Shown here piece by piece: positions 2,096 through 24,172 of a DNA stretch of 25,439 nucleotides. Source of the stretch: a virus. Where the stretch lies: positions 1 through 25,439 of the IMG/VR virus record IMGVR_UViG_3300037160_000197; one strand, given 5' to 3'. Position 1 is the first letter of the stretch, and every line of letters begins with the position of its first letter. The translations under genes were made by a program, and so were the position numbers. The notes beneath the pieces were generated by a model that was given only the letters and a program-made list of their open reading frames with translations, made no database searches and was not told where the DNA came from.

Positions 2096-3701
2096 CGCCA
2101 GCCGAAGGGTTCGCCAGGAGACGGCCAACGCCAACGCCGACACTCCTGCGCGCGGGCGCGTAATCCGATGCGCCGTCTACACCCGCAAGTCCACCGACGA
2201 GGGACTCGCCCAGGAGTTCAACTCGCTGGACGCCCAGCGGGAAGCGGCGGAGGCTTACATCGCCAGCCAAAAGCACGAGGGTTGGACGCTCGTCCCGGAC
2301 GCCTACAACGATGGCGGGTTCACGGGTGCCAACATGGACCGGCCCGCGCTCAAACGCCTCCTGGCCGACATCGAGGCTGGCCGGGTGGATAACGTTTTGG
2401 TTTATAAAGTGGACCGCCTGAGCCGGTCGCTGTTGGACTTCACGCGCATCCTGAGCCAGTTCGAGAAACGCCAGGTCAGCTTCGTGGCCGTCACCCAACA
2501 GTTCAACACGAGCACGTCGCTGGGGCGGCTGACGCTCAACATCCTGCTCTCGTTCGCGCAGTTCGAGAGGGAGCTGATCGGAGAGCGGACACGGGACAAG
2601 ATGTCGGCGGCGCGGCGGAAGGGAAAGTGGGTGGGCGGCATTCCGGTGCTTGGGTACGACGTGGACCCGCGCGGTGGTCGGCTGGTGGTCAACCCCGACG
2701 AGGCCGGGCAGGTCCAAGCTATCTTCAAGCTGTACGCCGAGAGCCGGGCGCTGATTCCGGCGGTGCGGGAGTTGAACCGGCGCGGCTGGACCACCAAGGT
2801 GTGGACCACCAAGGAGGGCCGGGAGCACAAGGGACAGGAGTTCACCAAGAACGCGCTGTACCGGCTGCTGACCAACGTGATCTACACCGGCCAAGTCAAC
2901 CACAAGGGTACCCTATACGCCGGTGAGCACGCGCCCATCGTGGACGCGGCGTTGTGGGAACATGTGCAGGAGCGACTGCGCGGTAACGGCGTCGATGGCG
3001 GGAGGGAGGTCAGGAACCGGTACGGCGCGCTGCTCCGCGGCCTGCTCCACTGCGATGCGTGCCAGACCGCCATGGTGCATACCTACACCCTGAAGGGTTC
3101 CCGCCGCTACCGCTATTACGTCTGCCTTACCGCCCAGCAGAAGGGCTGGGACGCCTGCCCGACCAAATCGGTGGCGGCGCAGTCGATTGAGGACTCGGTG
3201 GTCGCCCGCATGCGTGCTTTGGGCGCCGACCCTCGGATCGTGCTGGAGACGGCGCGGAAGGTCCGGGAGCGAGTCGAGGCGTCGTCGGGTGAACTGGCGG
3301 TTGAACTCAAGGTCGCGCAAAAGGACTTGAGCCGGTTGCAGAGCGAGCTAATCAAGGCCGTCGCTACGCCGGGAAACGGCCTGCGGACGGACCGGCTGGC
3401 GGACTTGCAGGAGCAGATTCGGGCGGCGGAGCGCCGGGCCGGGGAAGTGCGCGCGGAGTTGGACGCGCTGGCGGCGGAGACGGTGGACGAGGAGGACCTG
3501 CGGACGGCGCTCCAGTCGTTCGATCCGGTGTGGCAATCGCTGAACACGGCGGAGCAGACGCGGCTCATCCGGGCGGTGATAGACCGCATCGGGTATGACG
3601 GGCGCACTGGCCGGATCGCGGTGACGTTCCGGGCGGCGGGGTTCAAGGCGATCTGCGCGGCGGCGGGGCAGGAGGCAGTGGGACAGGAGGTGGGGGTATG
3701 A
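2088..3701 (+). CDS. Large serine recombinase (537 aa)
   Basis: A resolvase/invertase-type site-specific recombinase that would cut and rejoin DNA through a covalent phosphoserine link. The catalytic domain begins near residue 26 with AVYTRKSTDEG, where S35 is the expected nucleophile. It continues with YNDGGFTGANMDRP, a VDRLSRS arginine motif and ERELIGERTRDKM on the long helix. A recombinase domain follows (about 180-290), then a zinc ribbon of the CxxC...C...C type (CDACQTAM, YYVC, DACP), a coiled coil (about 400-465) and a short C-terminal domain. The start is TTG at 2088, inside the end of the DUF2924 gene, which fits coupled translation. Size and domain order are normal for phage or island integrases, so this is the likely mover of the left segment. 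Confidence 0.95.
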   Translation: MHSASRRVRQETANANADTPARGRVIRCAVYTRKSTDEGLAQEFNSLDAQREAAEAYIASQKHEGWTLVPDAYNDGGFTGANMDRPALKRLLADIEAGRVDNVLVYKVDRLSRSLLDFTRILSQFEKRQVSFVAVTQQFNTSTSLGRLTLNILLSFAQFERELIGERTRDKMSAARRKGKWVGGIPVLGYDVDPRGGRLVVNPDEAGQVQAIFKLYAESRALIPAVRELNRRGWTTKVWTTKEGREHKGQEFTKNALYRLLTNVIYTGQVNHKGTLYAGEHAPIVDAALWEHVQERLRGNGVDGGREVRNRYGALLRGLLHCDACQTAMVHTYTLKGSRRYRYYVCLTAQQKGWDACPTKSVAAQSIEDSVVARMRALGADPRIVLETARKVRERVEASSGELAVELKVAQKDLSRLQSELIKAVATPGNGLRTDRLADLQEQIRAAERRAGEVRAELDALAAETVDEEDLRTALQSFDPVWQSLNTAEQTRLIRAVIDRIGYDGRTGRIAVTFRAAGFKAICAAAGQEAVGQEVGV

Positions 3702-4224: not shown

Positions 4225-4459
4225 TTAGCCGTCGAGCACCTCAAGTTCTATCGTGGGCGCCCGGAACCGCATACCCGCATACCGGCACCGGCTCTTGCGC
4301 AAAAACTTCTTGCTCTTGCTATGCTCCCACAGATATTTCTCGCCCGCCCTGCCTCCCGTGCCTGGTATGCTGATGCCTTACACGCTCCAGACTGTCGCCA
4401 CATTCGGGACACCAATACGTCAATTGGTAGGCGGTGAAATGCGCCTTCATGGACTCCAT
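4225..4459 (-). pseudogene. Small CxxC protein broken by one frameshift
   Basis: A strong ribosome site (GGAGGT, 9 bases before ATG at 4459) starts a reading frame that gives MESMKAHFTAYQ, then LTYWCPECGDSL and a basic stretch. It runs into a stop at about 4322. A change of frame near 4333-4340 restores a sensible continuation (EKYLWEHSKSKKFLRKSR, then RFRAPTIELEVLDG) ending at TAA 4225-4227. The intact product would be about 77 residues with one CxxC knuckle and a basic C-terminal half. I do not know the family. It lies 36 bases downstream of the Ntn hydrolase on the same strand, so they probably form one operon. The single indel may be decay or a sequencing error; I see no slippery site for programmed frameshifting. 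Confidence 0.55.
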
Positions 4460-4495
4460 GGTAAAGGAACCTCCGCATCCGGTTCAGTATACCGC

Positions 4496-5185
4496 CTATG
4501 CGATGTAGTCGAACGGTTTGGTCAGACGTTTGCCAAACGATTTATGCAGACTACCCGCCAATGATTGCAGTTCTTTATTCTTGCTGTCCGGCAGGCGATA
4601 ATACGGACGACCGTGTGGCATCACGATGATCTCTAAACCAGCGATCTCCGATGGCTGTTCAAGACCTGCTGTGAAGATGGTGTATGCAGCCGGGAGCAAT
4701 AGGCAGGAGATTGGAAGATTTATGGGTGCTGGACCAACCGGAGCGAAAGTATTAATGAAGTGTCTGGCATTATTCTTTACGGCACCAGAGACTATCCTAT
4801 CGTGGCATTCGCTTACGATTGGGGATTGAAAGAGATCAACCTGCCATAAGCTGTATCTTCCGGAGGATGTACATCCTACCAACACTGTCCGAGACACTCC
4901 GTCTCCCTCTCCCATAGGGATTCTTTCCCATGCGCATCGTGCTATCTGTTTCAATGACCATCCTATGTCATAATCATCGTCTTGGCGCTTGTAGCCGCTA
5001 ATATCGTCTGCCACGGTTAGGCTGAAATTGTCACCAGACGCACAACAAACCTGATCCCGGCATCTAAACTTACTGCTCATAGATTGGGACACGCCCTGGA
5101 CCCCAAGACCATCCGTTTGAGTCATCAGGCAGTCGCTCGCCATTACTATTCCGTCGGTGCCGACCAGTCCGATTTGAAGTGTCAT
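4496..5185 (-). CDS. Proteasome-type Ntn hydrolase (229 aa)
   Basis: The N-terminus reads MTLQIGLVGTDGIVMASD, the signature of proteasome beta subunits and HslV. After removal of Met the new first residue is Thr1, the catalytic nucleophile, and Asp falls exactly at position 17. A lysine in SSKF (position 38) is the likely equivalent of Lys33, followed by the ASGDN turn. The family hydrolyses peptide bonds with its N-terminal threonine in a self-compartmentalised ring. I chose the ATG at 5183-5185 because it exposes Thr1; an ATG six codons upstream (5203) has a somewhat better GGAG but would need propeptide removal. I see no AAA unfoldase or ubiquitin-like partner nearby. It is not a classical HslV or Anbu that I can name. 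The region is AT-richer than the flanking genes, suggesting separate acquisition. Confidence 0.7.
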   Translation of the reverse strand: MTLQIGLVGTDGIVMASDCLMTQTDGLGVQGVSQSMSSKFRCRDQVCCASGDNFSLTVADDISGYKRQDDDYDIGWSLKQIARCAWERIPMGEGDGVSRTVLVGCTSSGRYSLWQVDLFQSPIVSECHDRIVSGAVKNNARHFINTFAPVGPAPINLPISCLLLPAAYTIFTAGLEQPSEIAGLEIIVMPHGRPYYRLPDSKNKELQSLAGSLHKSFGKRLTKPFDYIA

Positions 5186-5255
5186 GATATTTTCTGGTTG
5201 CATTCGGGTACACGCTCCGCTTAAAATGAATTTGGGCGAGCACCCAAACCGATAT

Positions 5256-5284
5256 TGAAAAGGCCCGCTGTGGCGGCGGGCCTT
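5256..5284 (-). terminator. Predicted intrinsic terminator
   Basis: A perfect 9-bp stem (5260-5268 with 5276-5284, AAGGCCCGC arms) has a 7-base loop. On the minus strand it is followed by a short T run (TTTTC). It lies just after the transposase remnant and before the Ntn hydrolase gene on the same strand, so it separates the two units. Confidence 0.6.
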
Positions 5285-5304
5285 CCGTTTCAATCCTACC
5301 ACTA

Positions 5305-5690
5305 CTACGCCAACAATTCCTTCAGGCCCCACACATGATCCGCGATCCCCACTTCCATCGCCGGGGTGACTCGCAAGGTCTGATGAATCCCGCAGAAGTT
5401 GTAGTAGGCAAAGTGCAGGCAATACGCAGCCAAAAGGTTCTCCACTTTTTGCTAAAAGTATTCGTCAGCCGCGTGAGACGGCGCACGCACATTCTGATCG
5501 TGAGGTTTTGGCCGTTCCACATGCCAGTGCAAACCCGGCGAGTATCGGGGTTCCCCATGACTGGGACCACCTCCACGGAAACCACCTCAGGCTGGCGAGT
5601 AGCGCCGCTGTTCCTCTTGCGGGACCGCGTAATCCCACTACCGACCTTGAGCGCGCCCCCATGGTGCACTGTGCGCGCCCCTGACGCCAG
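5305..5690 (-). pseudogene. IS1-like transposase, C-terminal remnant with several frameshifts
   Basis: Read with shifts, the minus strand gives the C-terminal part of an IS1-type DDE transposase: EEQRRYSPA, then EVVSVEVVPVMGNPDTRR, HVERQNLTIRMCVRRLTR, LTNTFSKKVENLLAAY, HFAYYNFCGIHQTLRVTP and AMEVGIADHVWGLKELLA, with a stop at 5305-5307. At least three indels are needed: near 5575, around 5519-5535, and a lost base after FSKK near 5447. It is therefore a decayed, non-functional copy. The YYNFCGIHQTLRVTPAME block is highly characteristic of these transposases. The N-terminal half is absent here; a matching N-terminal fragment lies at 16860-17066. I see no intact terminal inverted repeats. Confidence 0.75.
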
Positions 5691-5811
5691 GCAGGCAAGT
5701 GCATCGTCAAGTTGAGGTTGAAGACAATCAAGACGTCGCCTCGATTGTCTTTACCGACCGCGGAAGATGGTGTCGTCTTAGATGTCACAGAACCGTTGAA
5801 AACATAGCTAC

Positions 5812-5860
5812 TGGTTTATAAAGAGCGCTTTGGTTATAATGAAAGATCACATTGGCGAGG
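5812..5860 (+). promoter_or_regulatory. Promoter and ribosome site of the AlpA-sigma operon
   Basis: A perfect TATAAT lies at 5835-5840, 17 bases after a weak -35 (TGGTTT, 5812-5817). GGCGAGG (5854-5860) is correctly spaced before the ATG at 5865. The weak -35 suggests help from an activator. Confidence 0.5.
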
Positions 5861-5864
5861 TCTT

Positions 5865-6080
5865 ATGAGTCAGAGCAAGTTAGAATCCGTCAGTTCCAGT
5901 GCCAGACGCATCGGTATCTCAGCCGGCAGGTTTTACGATCTGGTACGTAACGGGATTTTCCCGCCCGGCGTAGTGGTCCGTCTCGGCCGGCAGATCCGGA
6001 TACACCCTGGACGGCTCGATCAGTTCATCGAAGGCGGCGGCAAGGCTCTGCCGGGCGGATGGCGCCGGGAAGCCCGATGA
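5865..6080 (+). CDS. AlpA/excisionase-like HTH protein (71 aa)
   Basis: A small winged-helix DNA-binding protein of the AlpA/Xis/MerR-like type: SARRIGISAGRFYDLVRNGI forms the recognition helices, followed by FPPGVVVRLGRQIRIHPGRLDQFI, the strand-wing-helix part where such proteins end with a W or F before a polar tail. These proteins activate or help excise integrated elements. It is the first gene of an operon in which each start overlaps the previous stop as ATGA, so it probably controls its own downstream genes or the host element. A consensus TATAAT and a good ribosome site support the start. Confidence 0.8.
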   Translation: MSQSKLESVSSSARRIGISAGRFYDLVRNGIFPPGVVVRLGRQIRIHPGRLDQFIEGGGKALPGGWRREAR

Positions 6081-8659: not shown

Positions 8660-10039
8660 ATGACCAAGATAACACAATTCGAGCCACCGCGGACCACTCG
8701 GCACAGGGCAAAGCACGACATACAGCCCGACGACGCTAACCCCGAGCCGGATACTGCGGAATCAATCACCGTAGGTTGGAAGTCACGCTTGCTGTACGAT
8801 GACGACGAAAGCAGCCGGCCGTCGTCCAACCTCGCTAATGCCATTACCGCCTTCCAGTACGCTCCCGCATGGAGCGGTGTTCTGGCGTTCGACGAAAATG
8901 CTCAGCGCATCGTTGCCAGAGAAGCGCCGCCGTGGGACGGCGAGGACTCCAACCTCCCATTTGATTGGTCGGATGTGCACGATATCTACGCGGCGAACTG
9001 GCTACAGCACCAGGGGATCATGGTTGGAAAAGAGATTGCAGGACAGGCTGCGTACGCGGTCGCGCGTAAACACCCGTACCATCCAATCCGGGACTATCTC
9101 GATTCGCTTGAGTGGGACGGAAGGGAGCGGCTCGACTACTGGCTCAAAACATACCTGGGTGCCGACGCCGATACGGTCGAAGGGATTCCAGGAGGAAGAC
9201 TGTTCATGCTGGTGAAACCAGACATCACTAGGTACACCATCGCGGTTGGGGAGTGCTTCCTAATCTCGGCGGCGGCGCGCATCTATAGTCCAGGCGCAAA
9301 AGTCGATACTTGCATGGTTCTGGAAGGCGGCCAGGGGAAGCTAAAGAGTACGGCCCTCAGCACACTCTTCGGGGAGGACTGGTTCACCGACACGCTACCA
9401 GATATTCGCACTAAGGATGCCGCCATCCAGCTCAACGGAATCTGGTGTGTCGAAATAGCCGAGCTGAGCGCATTCAAACCAGTAGATCTCGCCCACGTCA
9501 AGATGTTCATATCCCGCAGCACGGACCGCTACAGGCCACTGTATGGTAAGCATTCAGTCAATGTGCCCCGTCGGTGTGTCTTTGCCGCCACCACGAACGA
9601 GGATTCGTACCTGAAGGACCCCACCGGCGGACGCCGCTTCTGGCCGGTCAAGACCGGGACCATCGATATCTCCGCGCTGAAACGGGACCGCGACCAACTG
9701 TGGGCCGAAGCGGCCGCGCATTACAAGGATGGCGAACAGTGGTGGCTGGATGCCGAGCACGAGGAACTGGCGGCGAGAGAACAACGAGACCGCTACGAGA
9801 CCCACCCGTGGGAGCCCAAGATCGCGGAATGGATTGCTGGACGGGATAGCGTCAGCGTGACGGAGATCCTAACTGAGTGCCTTGAATTGAAGTCGAAGGA
9901 CCAGAAACAAACCCACAAAAACATTGTGGCGAGCGTCTTGAAATCGCTCGGCTGGACGAAATTTAGGGACCGCGACGGAGAAGAGCGACCTCGGCGATAT
10001 CGGCAGATCATCCAGCCGGGCAAAAAGATGTCCAAGTAG
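8660..10039 (+). CDS. VapE-family replicative helicase/primase-like ATPase (459 aa)
   Basis: This is a virulence-associated E (VapE) type P-loop protein, a superfamily 3-like DNA helicase found in phages, satellites and pathogenicity islands. An N-terminal region (about 60-200) contains HPIRDYLDSLEWDGRERLDY, the segment that normally precedes the ATPase. The Walker A is VLEGGQGKLKSTAL near 218-231, where the usual GxGKST appears as GKLKST. The Walker B is WCVEIAELS near 261-270. The sensor segment VFAATTNE and the DPTGGRRFWPV box follow near 307-328. A C-terminal domain (about 390-450) resembles a DNA-binding winged helix. AAGGAG lies 13 bases before the ATG. Iteron-like repeats begin right after the stop codon, so it is probably the initiator of a nearby origin. 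Confidence 0.9.
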   Translation: MTKITQFEPPRTTRHRAKHDIQPDDANPEPDTAESITVGWKSRLLYDDDESSRPSSNLANAITAFQYAPAWSGVLAFDENAQRIVAREAPPWDGEDSNLPFDWSDVHDIYAANWLQHQGIMVGKEIAGQAAYAVARKHPYHPIRDYLDSLEWDGRERLDYWLKTYLGADADTVEGIPGGRLFMLVKPDITRYTIAVGECFLISAAARIYSPGAKVDTCMVLEGGQGKLKSTALSTLFGEDWFTDTLPDIRTKDAAIQLNGIWCVEIAELSAFKPVDLAHVKMFISRSTDRYRPLYGKHSVNVPRRCVFAATTNEDSYLKDPTGGRRFWPVKTGTIDISALKRDRDQLWAEAAAHYKDGEQWWLDAEHEELAAREQRDRYETHPWEPKIAEWIAGRDSVSVTEILTECLELKSKDQKQTHKNIVASVLKSLGWTKFRDRDGEERPRRYRQIIQPGKKMSK

Positions 10040-10040
10040 T

Positions 10041-10272
10041 GTCCCACTCTGGTCCCGGTCTTGGTCCACGTTTAAATCAAGTGTTTTCAACATTGGTCCC
10101 AGTGGTCCCACTCTATATCTGAATAAAAGAAGTACGGGAGTGCCCGATGGGCAACAGGAGCCAGCGAGGAAAAAAGAAATTCGGTCAAAATACTGGGACC
10201 CTGGGACCAAAGCAACGTTTTCTATCAGTTGCAGTGTTTCCAGACTGGGACCAGACGGTCGAATGCTGGGAC
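10041..10272. repeat. GGTCCC/GGGACC inverted repeat array, candidate replication origin
   Basis: Three GGTCCC hexamers (10051, 10095, 10104) plus two near copies (GTCCC at 10041, GGTCC at 10063) lie on the left. Four GGGACC hexamers (10195, 10203, 10247, 10267) lie on the right. All left copies point one way and all right copies the other. The closest pairs are arranged as TGGGACC-(1 or 2 bases)-TGGGACCAA on each arm. Between them 10110-10194 is about 44% G+C by hand count, well below the surroundings. The array starts two bases after the VapE stop. Two repeat sets flanking an AT-richer core directly behind the helicase gene is the layout of SaPI origins, so this is probably where VapE loads. 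Confidence 0.6.
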
Positions 10273-10355
10273 CGGAAGGCAACCATAAAAAGAAACCATG
10301 ACGAGCGTGCATTAGCGACCTGCATCCTAACTGAACGTGCCTTTCGGTGCAAGAA

Positions 10356-21135: not shown

Positions 21136-21792
21136 TCATGATTTCCCTTGCCTCGCCGGTTGCCGCCGCACGCGGTGCATCGAGGCCTCAAAGCGTGTGC
21201 CCTTCGCCGCGGCGGCTCGATCTTCGAGGTACTCCTCATAAAGATCGGGCCGCTCATAGACAATGTGCGCATACGCCTGCTCAAATGCCTCACCCGCCGC
21301 GTCGCTACGCGCCCGAGCCAATTCCTGAAGCTTTTGCTCCGCATTGGGGGCCGCGTGGTACCTCAGCTCAACCAGGACTTCCTCCATCTTCACCAGTGCA
21401 GCCTTAAGTGAGGGCGTCTTCCGCACGTCTGCGATTAGCGATTCGAGGGCTGCGATAACCTCGGTCGATACCTGCCCCCATCCCGAAAATACGCTCCGAT
21501 TGCGAAGCAGCAAGAGAATTGCTTGCGTATACGCGGTCTCCTCGGCCGTGCTGGGATTCGTGCGCCCCTGAATTTCCTCGGCGAAAGCATCATAGAAGAT
21601 CTTGGCGAGGCTGTCGAGATTGTGTCTCGCGGCTAGGCTGGCAAAACGCCGAAGCACCTCTCCGCCCGGTTCCCTATCCTTCTCGTAATTCGCAATCGCC
21701 CGCACGGAAAGCCCGACGCGCTTGGCAAAGGCCGGCTGGGTCAAGCCGAGTGCCGAGCGGAGTTTCTTTACCGCTGGCCCTAATGAATCCAT
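21136..21792 (-). CDS. XRE-family repressor (218 aa)
   Basis: The N-terminus is a Cro/cI-type helix-turn-helix: VKKLRSALGLTQPAFAKRVG, then LSVRAIANYEKDREPGGEVL. A long helical region follows (about 60-150), then a charged C-terminus rich in Glu and Arg, probably for dimerisation. I placed the start at ATG 21790-21792 because TTTACT (-10, 21800-21805) lies seven bases before it and TTGTAT (-35, 21823-21828) is 17 bases further up, giving a leaderless mRNA. An ATG two codons earlier (21798) is the alternative. A much longer frame upstream overlaps the divergent regulator and is not real. With the AlpA-like gene it forms the switch of the second replication module. Confidence 0.85.
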   Translation of the reverse strand: MDSLGPAVKKLRSALGLTQPAFAKRVGLSVRAIANYEKDREPGGEVLRRFASLAARHNLDSLAKIFYDAFAEEIQGRTNPSTAEETAYTQAILLLLRNRSVFSGWGQVSTEVIAALESLIADVRKTPSLKAALVKMEEVLVELRYHAAPNAEQKLQELARARSDAAGEAFEQAYAHIVYERPDLYEEYLEDRAAAAKGTRFEASMHRVRRQPARQGKS

Positions 21793-21847: not shown

Positions 21848-21876
21848 TCATGCACAATGATATGATACGTGCATGA
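21848..21876 (+). promoter_or_regulatory. Operator flanking a leaderless promoter
   Basis: TCATGCAC (21848-21855) and GTGCATGA (21869-21876) are perfect inverted arms around 13 bases that contain the -10 box TATGAT (21861-21866). The right arm includes the ATG of the AlpA-like gene at 21873, six bases after the -10, so transcription should start at the start codon itself. The half-site GTGCAT is shared with the 21828 palindrome. Confidence 0.65.
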
Positions 21877-22100
21877 ACAGAATAAAGCGGAACGCACCAG
21901 GCACCACCCGGCCCGCCAATGTGTACCGCAACGTAGATGAGCTTGCGCAGGAGCTTGGGCTAGGGCGGCTGACAGTCTATGGGGCTCTTCGGGATGGAAC
22001 GATCCCATCAATCCGGGTGGGGAAGCGCTATGTGCTCCCGCGCGCAGCGATTCAGGAGTGGCTGCGGAGCGCTGGCGGGCAATTGAAGGTGGTCGCCTGA
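21873..22100 (+). CDS. AlpA-like/excisionase HTH regulator (75 aa)
   Basis: Winged-helix protein of the HTH_17 type: VYRNVDELAQELGLGRLTVY, then GALRDGTIPSIRVGKRYVLP and RAAIQEWLRSAGG. The RVGKRYVLPRAAIQEWL ending is classic for excisionase-like regulators. It has no Shine-Dalgarno sequence and its promoter is placed so that the message starts at the ATG. It is the first gene before the P4-type primase and faces the XRE repressor. It probably activates the replication genes or excision. Confidence 0.85.
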   Translation: MNRIKRNAPGTTRPANVYRNVDELAQELGLGRLTVYGALRDGTIPSIRVGKRYVLPRAAIQEWLRSAGGQLKVVA

Positions 22101-22109
22101 CAACTTGAG

Positions 22110-22212: not shown

Positions 22213-23724
22213 ATGAACGAGTATAAACCAAGAGCGGGTCCGCCAGCATCACCAGCGCCGAGGCCAAGTCCAGGTGACAGCGCCACCCCGCAACGCCCGC
22301 AATTGGTAATGGAACTCCCGAAGCATCCCGAGCCTGACGAGCCGGGCCTATTGTACTTCTCCCTCAACGATCACGGGAATGCGCAACGTGTCGCGGCGAT
22401 CTATGGCCCGTCCATGCGGTATTGCCACGCCTTCAAAAAGTGGTTGCTCTGGGACGGCCGGCGGTGGAGGGTAGACGAGACCGAACAAGCCCGCCGTTGG
22501 GCACGCTTGGTGATGGTGAAGTTCCTCGCGCAGGCGGTCAGTTCAGGCAATCCGGACGACTATAAGTCCGAAGCCTCTAGGCTGGGAAATTTTGCGTCGT
22601 CTTCCATTAATGCCCGCGGCATCACTGACATGCTCACGACGTTGCGGAGCGATCCGGAGATCGTGATTGAGCCTGGAGAACTGGACACCCACCCACACCT
22701 GTTGAACTGCCTGAATGGCACGGTCGATCTGCGTACCGGCGCCATAGGTCCGCACGATCCGGAACATTACATCACCAAGCTGGTTCACCATGGCTACCGC
22801 CCGGAGGCGAAGTGCGAAAGGTGGTTGCGGTTTATCTCCGAGGTCATGAACGGGAAGCAAGAACTTGTCAACTACTTGCAAACAGCTCTCGGATACTCCC
22901 TCACAGGAAGCACGATTGAAAAAGCAGTCTTTGTGCTCTTTGGGGACGGTAACAACGGCAAGACTACCTTGCTCAGCACGATCCGAACGTTGATTCCGGA
23001 GTATGCCACCCTCGTACAGGTAGATTCGCTCATGACGCGCAGTGAGGAGTCCAACAACGTCAAGGCCGATTTGGCGGACCTTCGCGGAGCAAGATATGCG
23101 ATGACATCGGAAAGTGAACAGGGCCAATCGCTCTCTCCGGCCAAACTGAAGCGTATCACGCAGGGCATGGGGATAATCAAATCGGTGCGCAAGTATGAGA
23201 ACCCCATCGAATTTCCGGAGACCCACAAGCTTTGGTTGGATACTAATAGGAAACCGAAAATACCGGATGCGGACGACGGGGCGATTTTCAACCGGCTGCA
23301 CCCTATTCCATTCACAGCAATCGTACCCAGGGAGAAGATCGACCGCGACCTGCCGGGCAAACTGCTACGAGAAGCGGAAGGCATACTGGCATGGGCGGTG
23401 GCGGGGGCGAAACTGTGGCACGAGCACGGACTGAACAAACCGCCCGTGATCGAGTCGGCGACAGAGGAGTGGAGAGAAGAATCAGACTGGGTGGCGTCCT
23501 TCATTGACGACCGCTGCGTCATTGGGGATGGCATCAGCGCCGGCGCCAGCGAATTGTTTCAGGCGTACCGCGGCTGGGCAAGCGATAGCGGAAAGAAGCC
23601 ATGCTCCAGAGAGGTTTTCTCGGAAAAGATGAACGGTAAAGGGATCGACAAGAAGCACATGCAGGCCGGAACCCGGTATTTGGGCATCCGACTCGCGGAC
23701 ACCCAGTCCAAGCCTGACGCCTGA
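22213..23724 (+). CDS. P4-type phage/plasmid primase-helicase (503 aa)
   Basis: A D5/P4-alpha family replication protein. The N-terminal D5_N-like domain (about 60-210) contains YCHAFKKWLLWDGRRWRVDE, then LLNCLNGTVDLRTG and ITKLVHHGYRPEAKCERWLR. The superfamily 3 helicase has the Walker A FGDGNNGKTTLLS near 242-254, a Walker B/ARYAMTSESEQG segment near 293-304, and LWLDTNRKPKI with an arginine finger region near 335-350. A C-terminal winged helix (about 440-490) may bind origin repeats. The archaeal-type primase part of P4 alpha is absent, so it is probably helicase only. The iteron array begins inside its last codons, which suggests it loads there. Confidence 0.92.
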   Translation: MNEYKPRAGPPASPAPRPSPGDSATPQRPQLVMELPKHPEPDEPGLLYFSLNDHGNAQRVAAIYGPSMRYCHAFKKWLLWDGRRWRVDETEQARRWARLVMVKFLAQAVSSGNPDDYKSEASRLGNFASSSINARGITDMLTTLRSDPEIVIEPGELDTHPHLLNCLNGTVDLRTGAIGPHDPEHYITKLVHHGYRPEAKCERWLRFISEVMNGKQELVNYLQTALGYSLTGSTIEKAVFVLFGDGNNGKTTLLSTIRTLIPEYATLVQVDSLMTRSEESNNVKADLADLRGARYAMTSESEQGQSLSPAKLKRITQGMGIIKSVRKYENPIEFPETHKLWLDTNRKPKIPDADDGAIFNRLHPIPFTAIVPREKIDRDLPGKLLREAEGILAWAVAGAKLWHEHGLNKPPVIESATEEWREESDWVASFIDDRCVIGDGISAGASELFQAYRGWASDSGKKPCSREVFSEKMNGKGIDKKHMQAGTRYLGIRLADTQSKPDA

Positions 23725-23814
23725 CGGACCCTGACGGTGAAATCACAAAAGTTCTTCACGCGCGCTCGTATGGGAGATTTCCGAAAATCAGCGTCAGTCT
23801 CCGTCAGCCGTCAG
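23714..23814. repeat. CTGACGG inverted iteron array, candidate replication origin
   Basis: Left arm: CTGACGC (23714), CTGACGG (23721), CTGACGG (23731). Right arm: GCGTCAG (23791), CCGTCAG (23801), CCGTCAG (23808). Each arm is three heptamers, two of them adjacent and one after a three-base gap, and the arms are 24 bases with 20 of 24 positions matching when one is reversed. The 53-base core (23738-23790) is about 43% G+C. The left arm overlaps the stop codon of the primase gene. This is the SaPI-type layout: two iteron sets flanking a melting region directly behind the helicase gene. Confidence 0.7.
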
Positions 23815-23859: not shown

Positions 23860-24096
23860 TTATCCGGCGGAAGGTCGAGCGGTCCTCCTGAAGTCGAACA
23901 ACTCCCGCACCGTCAAATCCAACCGATCCGCCATGCGCTCCAACACCTCGAAACTCGGCGCGTTGATGCCCCGCTCGATCAGGCTCAGGAAATCGACGCT
24001 GATACCGACCAGTTCCGCGAACTGCTCCTGCGTAAGCTCGCGGTCGAGCCGGATTGCCTTTAGCCGATTTCCAAAGTCTCGCCGAAGGGAGGGCAT
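23860..24096 (-). CDS. Small XRE-family regulator (78 aa)
   Basis: Almost the whole protein is a Cro/cI-like helix-turn-helix: GNRLKAIRLDRELTQEQFAE, then LVGISVDFLSLIERGINAPS and FEVLERMADRLDLTVRELFD. The SVDFLSLIERG segment is the recognition helix region. It faces away from the secreted protein gene and a CGTAATC palindrome lies between them. No clear ribosome site precedes the ATG at 24096. It may control the secreted protein gene, itself, or a restriction-modification-like unit; the last has no support here. Confidence 0.85.
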   Translation of the reverse strand: MPSLRRDFGNRLKAIRLDRELTQEQFAELVGISVDFLSLIERGINAPSFEVLERMADRLDLTVRELFDFRRTARPSAG

Positions 24097-24128: not shown

Positions 24129-24172
24129 CGTAATCTGATTACGGGCAAAAGCCCACCGAATGAGATTACGGG
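24129..24172. promoter_or_regulatory. CGTAATC operator-like repeats
   Basis: CGTAATCTGATTACG (24129-24143) is a perfect 15-base palindrome. GATTACGGG at 24137-24145 recurs at 24164-24172, just before the secreted protein start. These three half-sites between divergent genes fit a binding site for the small XRE regulator. Confidence 0.5.

Follow-up and report, generated by a model that had tools for sequence, protein, structure and literature searches.

A mirrored CTGACGG iteron array directly behind a P4-family helicase gene as a probable replication origin of a mobile element

The window analysed here, which is the entire IMG/VR record of 25,439 bases, carries a gene for a P4-family SF3 initiator helicase, with two inverted iteron arms at its 3' end and HTH genes on either side (Table 1). 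The HTH_17 gene probably belongs to the same element as the helicase, and the divergent HTH_3 gene encodes the probable repressor of that element. Upstream of the 78-aa HTH-like ORF, repeated GTAATCTGATTAC / GAGATTACGGG motifs were noticed at 24130-24170, which are possible operators. No homology was found when the flanking regulator was compared with the regulator of equal length in the relative L005, or when the downstream gene was compared with a gene in the relative L002. The element bearing the array is probably integrated, and it may be a defective remnant.

Table 1. Coordinates of the helicase gene, its neighbours and the parts of the array in the window.
Feature	Position	Strand	Remarks
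HTH_3 (XRE-type) regulator	21136..21792	-	divergent
Small HTH_17 (excisionase/AlpA-like) gene	21873..22101	+	directly upstream of the helicase gene
P4-family SF3 initiator helicase, 503 aa	22213..23724	+	D5_N 57-212, DUF5906 242-355, TIGR01613
Left iteron arm: CTGACGC CTGACGG acc CTGACGG	23714..23737	+	
Origin core, 53 nt, about 43% G+C	23738..23790	+	origin role putative, from sequence
Right iteron arm, inverted; read on -: CTGACGG CTGACGG aga CTGACGC	23791..23814	-	
78-aa HTH-like ORF (XRE-type by eye)	23860..24096	-	points at the array, ends about 45 bp away

The helicase matched the TIGR01613 profile ('phage/plasmid primase, P4 family') with 255.9 bits against a cut-off of 108.7, and in the profile search the D5_N and DUF5906 scores both exceeded their cut-offs. 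The best PHROG alignment began at profile position 329 of 772, and profile searches found no primase domain in the protein. The preliminary description had labelled the gene a primase; this label had to be abandoned, since the product corresponds to the helicase/initiator portion only. In the relatives L002, L003 and L005, a separate Toprim/CHC2 primase gene lies directly upstream of the helicase gene; no homologue of this Toprim primase was found anywhere in the contig. The AlphaFold model of the helicase had a pLDDT of 84.9 overall and of about 90 across residues 411-494. In the model, this stretch follows the winged-helix-like order helix-helix-strand-helix-helix-hairpin, and it is predicted to form a C-terminal winged helix. 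The top structural matches were the SF3 primase-helicases of African swine fever virus, mpox and vaccinia, with alignments spanning the whole protein.

The array sits between the convergent 3' ends of the helicase gene and the 78-aa ORF. On the + strand, heptamers start at 23714 (CTGACGC), 23721 and 23731 (both CTGACGG), and on the - strand they occupy 23791-23797 (CTGACGC), 23801-23807 and 23808-23814 (both CTGACGG). When the coordinates were recomputed, they agreed with the earlier account of two 24-base arms, with 20 of the 24 positions matching on inversion, around a 53-base core. The same was true of the composition of each arm, with two abutting heptamers and one set off by three bases, and of the overlap with the helicase gene, whose stop codon TGA (23722-23724) lies within the second heptamer of the left arm. 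The count of six CTGACGG heptamers stood as to the number of sites, but four of the six are exact, and the outermost left and innermost right copies read CTGACGC. All four mismatches between the arms fall in the spacers or at base seven of a heptamer.

A similar mirrored array, built of other repeats, was observed at 10051-10273, behind a VapE-like helicase gene (8660-10039). In this first module, GGTCCC occurs at 10051, 10095 and 10104, and GGGACC at 10195, 10203, 10247 and 10268; the GGTCCC repeats pointed out earlier were thereby confirmed.

In order to place the array against chance, heptamers with at most one mismatch were counted. Six were present in about 100 bp at the array and at most three per 110 bp elsewhere in the contig, and no cluster in 30 simulated Markov contigs held more than four. 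The array was also the top 24-nt inverted pair of the contig for loops of 25-100 nt (20 matches, from 23712), the runner-up having 18 matches; in 1,500 Markov 400-mers, the best such pair reached at most 19.

Relatives of the helicase were drawn from viral contigs, a sample of Acidobacteriota genomes and named phages and plasmids, and 69 were kept after reduction at 85% identity. An array was scored when the 400-nt 3' flank contained a pair of inverted 20-nt arms matching at 16 or more positions. Behind the gene, such an array was found in 39 of the 69 relatives (57%), as against 17 of 1380 shuffles (1.2%), 3 of 69 intragenic controls (4%) and 1 of 53 upstream controls (2%). The frequency of 57% is probably a lower bound, because iterons are visible below the threshold in further relatives, for example L015, L119, L122, L123 and L124. 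One of the 39, L125, passes through arms other than its visible TGCCGATT iterons. In the Streptomyces plasmid L124, several GCGAAGGACCT repeats, mostly in one orientation, were seen at 2980-3300 behind a P4-type helicase gene, so that the layout there differs from the mirrored one. The 16-match test detected no array in the 3' flanks of the Arthrobacter phage L008 and the plasmids L007 and L009, whose origins must lie elsewhere or be different in form.

In 34 of the 39 arrays, the arms are direct repeats with a period of 8-10 bp, which is about one helical turn (period 9 in 23 arrays, 8 in six and 10 in five). The iterons vary with the lineage (TGACGGAT, TGACGCAG, GTGACCGA, TGGAGGGT, TGCATTAT or TGTCCA), and despite these differences they agree within each arm and across the two arms. 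The search for repeats in relatives carrying the same helicase, which had been proposed at the outset, thus returned mirrored arrays behind the gene whose repeats are specific to the lineage.

The nearest relatives of the helicase are 53-57% identical to it. In L091/L005, from a Bryobacteraceae MAG, and in L003, CTGACGGGTCTGACG stands immediately 3' of the gene, and the core reads TTCAAAAACTA(C/G)TTCATCACGCGCG.ATAT.GGAGTTTTT; the right arm of L003 is degenerate. L004 has GTGACCGAT iterons around the core AAAAAGTAGACGTACGCGTGTAAGGAAGTT. In L002 and L011, the complete module is displaced 1.7 kb downstream. As it stays intact at this distance from the gene, it is a discrete unit and does not simply result from where the gene ends. 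In L002, the gap between the helicase gene and the displaced module is filled by a gene for a caspase-like protein (Peptidase_C14; noted at 4447-5958), which may be cargo or serve in defence. The gap before the module of L011 is about as large.

The cores were then compared. The motif CAAAAGTTCTTCACGCGCGC...TATGGGAG.TTT of the window core is common to the close relatives, and many cores have in their middle a tract in which purines and pyrimidines alternate, such as TACGCGTGCGCGTGCGCACACG. Alternating runs of at least 14 nt were present in 16 of 38 cores and in 10 of 5741 background 60-nt windows (0.17%), a statistic that was picked post hoc and on which related G+C-rich lineages weigh. The run in the window core is shorter (CACGCGCGC, 9 nt). 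An inner palindrome of 7/7 was found in 21% of the cores and 4% of the shuffles, a weak signal. Alternating purine-pyrimidine tracts are prone to form Z-DNA or to deform easily. In the open literature, no description of an alternating core in such origins was found, and this feature is possibly new. In view of its enrichment, one may ask how a G+C-rich origin is melted by SF3 initiators.

In addition, the similarity of the iterons was related to the identity of the helicases. The more identical the C-terminal domains of two helicases were, the more similar were their iterons (Mantel r = 0.49), and a partial correlation of 0.20 (p = 0.0005), from which phylogeny is only partly removed, was kept when the helicase core was given. 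The reverse partial, for the helicase core given the C-terminal domain, was weaker (0.135, p = 0.045). The iterons thus follow the C-terminal domain a little more closely than they do the helicase core, which is the pattern that recognition by the C-terminal domain would predict, with the reservation that phylogeny is removed only in part.

Taken together, the array is very probably the origin from which the mobile element that encodes the helicase is replicated, or at the least the site at which its initiator binds and is loaded. A helicase-specific origin had been expected from the preliminary description, and the layout in the relatives, the iterons that follow the C-terminal domain and the equivalent sites of P4, Sfi21 and pRN1 argue in its favour. 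For the window copy, origin activity would follow by analogy with these systems.

Other explanations of the arms were weighed against an iteron origin. The arms could act by extruding a cruciform, as a stem-loop origin with a hairpin loop of about 50 nt of the kind proposed for pRN1 and phage BIP-1. Folding of the array region as a single strand does pair the arms, with -24 kcal/mol and z = -3.3 against its own shuffles, and pRN1 requires an intact stem-loop. In the relatives, the spacers are also fairly complementary between the arms (83%, compared with 91% for the iterons); as a means of telling a stem-loop from iterons, this comparison was discarded as indecisive because the arms had been selected by their complementarity. 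A stem-loop, however, leaves the direct-repeat period of 8-10 bp unexplained, and in the window it is the spacers and last heptamer bases that hold every mismatch. We therefore consider it unlikely as the main mode of action, although a stem-loop may contribute. The array might instead be an operator, or a site of incompatibility or copy control, at which the helicase or a nearby HTH protein represses transcription or handcuffs origins. Plasmid iteron arrays often serve as control sites too, and the HTH-like ORF ends close by. Against such a role, which we judge quite improbable, both flanking genes present their 3' ends to the array, a promoter scan found no promoter-like site there, and the iterons recur with the helicase amid varied neighbours, together with a conserved core.

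Inverted arms that fold well at the 3' end of a gene also recall a terminator, or another RNA structure that ends the helicase mRNA. An intrinsic terminator consists of a short G+C-rich hairpin and a T-run; at the array, the arm has no trailing T-run and the loop measures about 53 nt, and this candidate was rejected. Terminator-like matches in the region were at chance level, with none inside the array, and Rfam gave no match above threshold for the array, the best (E 0.23) being to unrelated human lncRNA families. As the module of L002 and L011 is moreover intact far from the gene, an RNA element is very improbable. The same low probability is assigned to repeats arisen by chance and to a recombination site (att/cos). 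The latter would suit the location of the array in a probable integrated element, but had no specific support; the cluster exceeded all simulated sequences, and the arrangement is conserved behind the helicase.

An iteron origin would work as follows, by analogy with P4, SaPI, SCCmec and pRN1. The C-terminal winged-helix domain would bind the CTGACGG iterons, and the three mirrored iterons of each arm would set two helicase assemblies face to face over the 53-bp core. ATP-driven assembly would then melt the core, so that two 3'-5' SF3 rings could be loaded on opposite strands and the forks could proceed both ways, bidirectionality again being assumed from the analogous systems. Since no primase domain was found in the helicase, and the contig yielded nothing homologous to the Toprim primase of the relatives, priming would come from another enzyme, either the host DnaG or the primase of a helper.

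From these comparisons, a practical rule can be proposed for uncharacterised prophages, satellites and plasmids, namely to seek mirrored iterons directly behind the P4-type helicase gene. The variety of iterons met with one protein family also constitutes a data set for a C-terminal recognition code. More tentatively, we suggest as a possibility rather than an expectation that one origin plan is common to the P4/D5-type helicases encoded by phages, plasmids and satellites, in which mirrored, lineage-specific iteron pairs surround a core of about 50 bp centred on an alternating purine-pyrimidine tract (TACGCGCGCATGCGCG..., replaced by TATATA where the host is A+T-rich). If this is true, the alternating tract would serve for melting or loading in place of the classical A+T-rich element, the 'iteron' origin of P4 and the 'stem-loop' origin of pRN1 would be united, and the origin and the specificity of its initiator could be read from the sequence.

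Among the known systems, the crr of P4 resembles the window array in being required in cis, in lying 3' of a P4-family helicase gene and in having two forward repeats, a gap of about 36 bp and two inverted repeats. In the GenBank record, crr (4291-4590) is directly 3' of alpha, with type-1 repeats at 4314 and 4323 (+) and at 4366 and 4384 (-), and P4 alpha is described as binding the origin repeats by a winged-helix domain. Unlike the window helicase, P4 alpha has a Toprim primase domain, its repeat is TGTTCACC and not CTGACGG, and crr is duplicated. The array is thus not P4 alpha/crr proper, for which a fused Toprim domain and the type-1 repeat would be needed. The rep_origin of P4 is annotated separately, at 9086-9809, crr being a second region required in cis; by this analogy, the site behind the helicase gene need not be the sole or true start site. 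The array of the Acidithiobacillus phage AcaML1, whose helicase is 37% identical, has CTGACGGGT iterons and an alternating-tract core at the equivalent place, but its tract is 20 nt long, compared with 9 nt in the window, and it carries no origin annotation.

SaPI Rep and the D5-type SCCmec protein Cch2 use a C-terminal domain to recognise repeats that follow the genes encoding them (PMC7581432). With the window helicase they share, SaPI being compared by description (PMC7581432), the character of a self-loading helicase, a C-terminal DNA-binding domain, which in the window helicase is predicted, and downstream repeats; the Cch2 site, unlike the window array, consists of just three 5-nt AAGTG repeats. 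In the Streptococcus phage Sfi21, the region that directly follows the primase gene is annotated in GenBank as 'origin of replication, 302 bp non-coding region, phage inhibitory sequence'. It is described as an origin-based phage resistance element, with Foley et al. 1998 cited for it, and is reported to support autonomous replication (PMC6356513). This non-coding origin 3' of a P4-family primase gene has many AGTAAC/GTTACT copies; compared with the window array it is A+T-rich, larger and richer in repeats.

In pRN1, a 100-bp element behind orf904, together with the replication operon, is both required and enough for replication. Its arms of 21 nt enclose a loop of 58 nt, and the authors of the study call it a stem-loop without iterons (PMC4234260). 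We found that the pRN1 arms (L126, 5080-5190) read TTATGTCCATAGTGTCCAAC, that is, a mirrored TGTCCA present twice at a spacing of 9 bp. As in the window, an inverted-arm element of about 100 bp with mirrored repeats in its arms thus follows a replication gene, the differences being that pRN1 is an archaeal plasmid of Sulfolobus, that its primase-polymerase is fused to the helicase and that its stem is perfect. Since P4 crr, the Sfi21 origin and pRN1 hold origins or replication regions at the equivalent place, the array described here is probably a fresh example of an already known type of origin.
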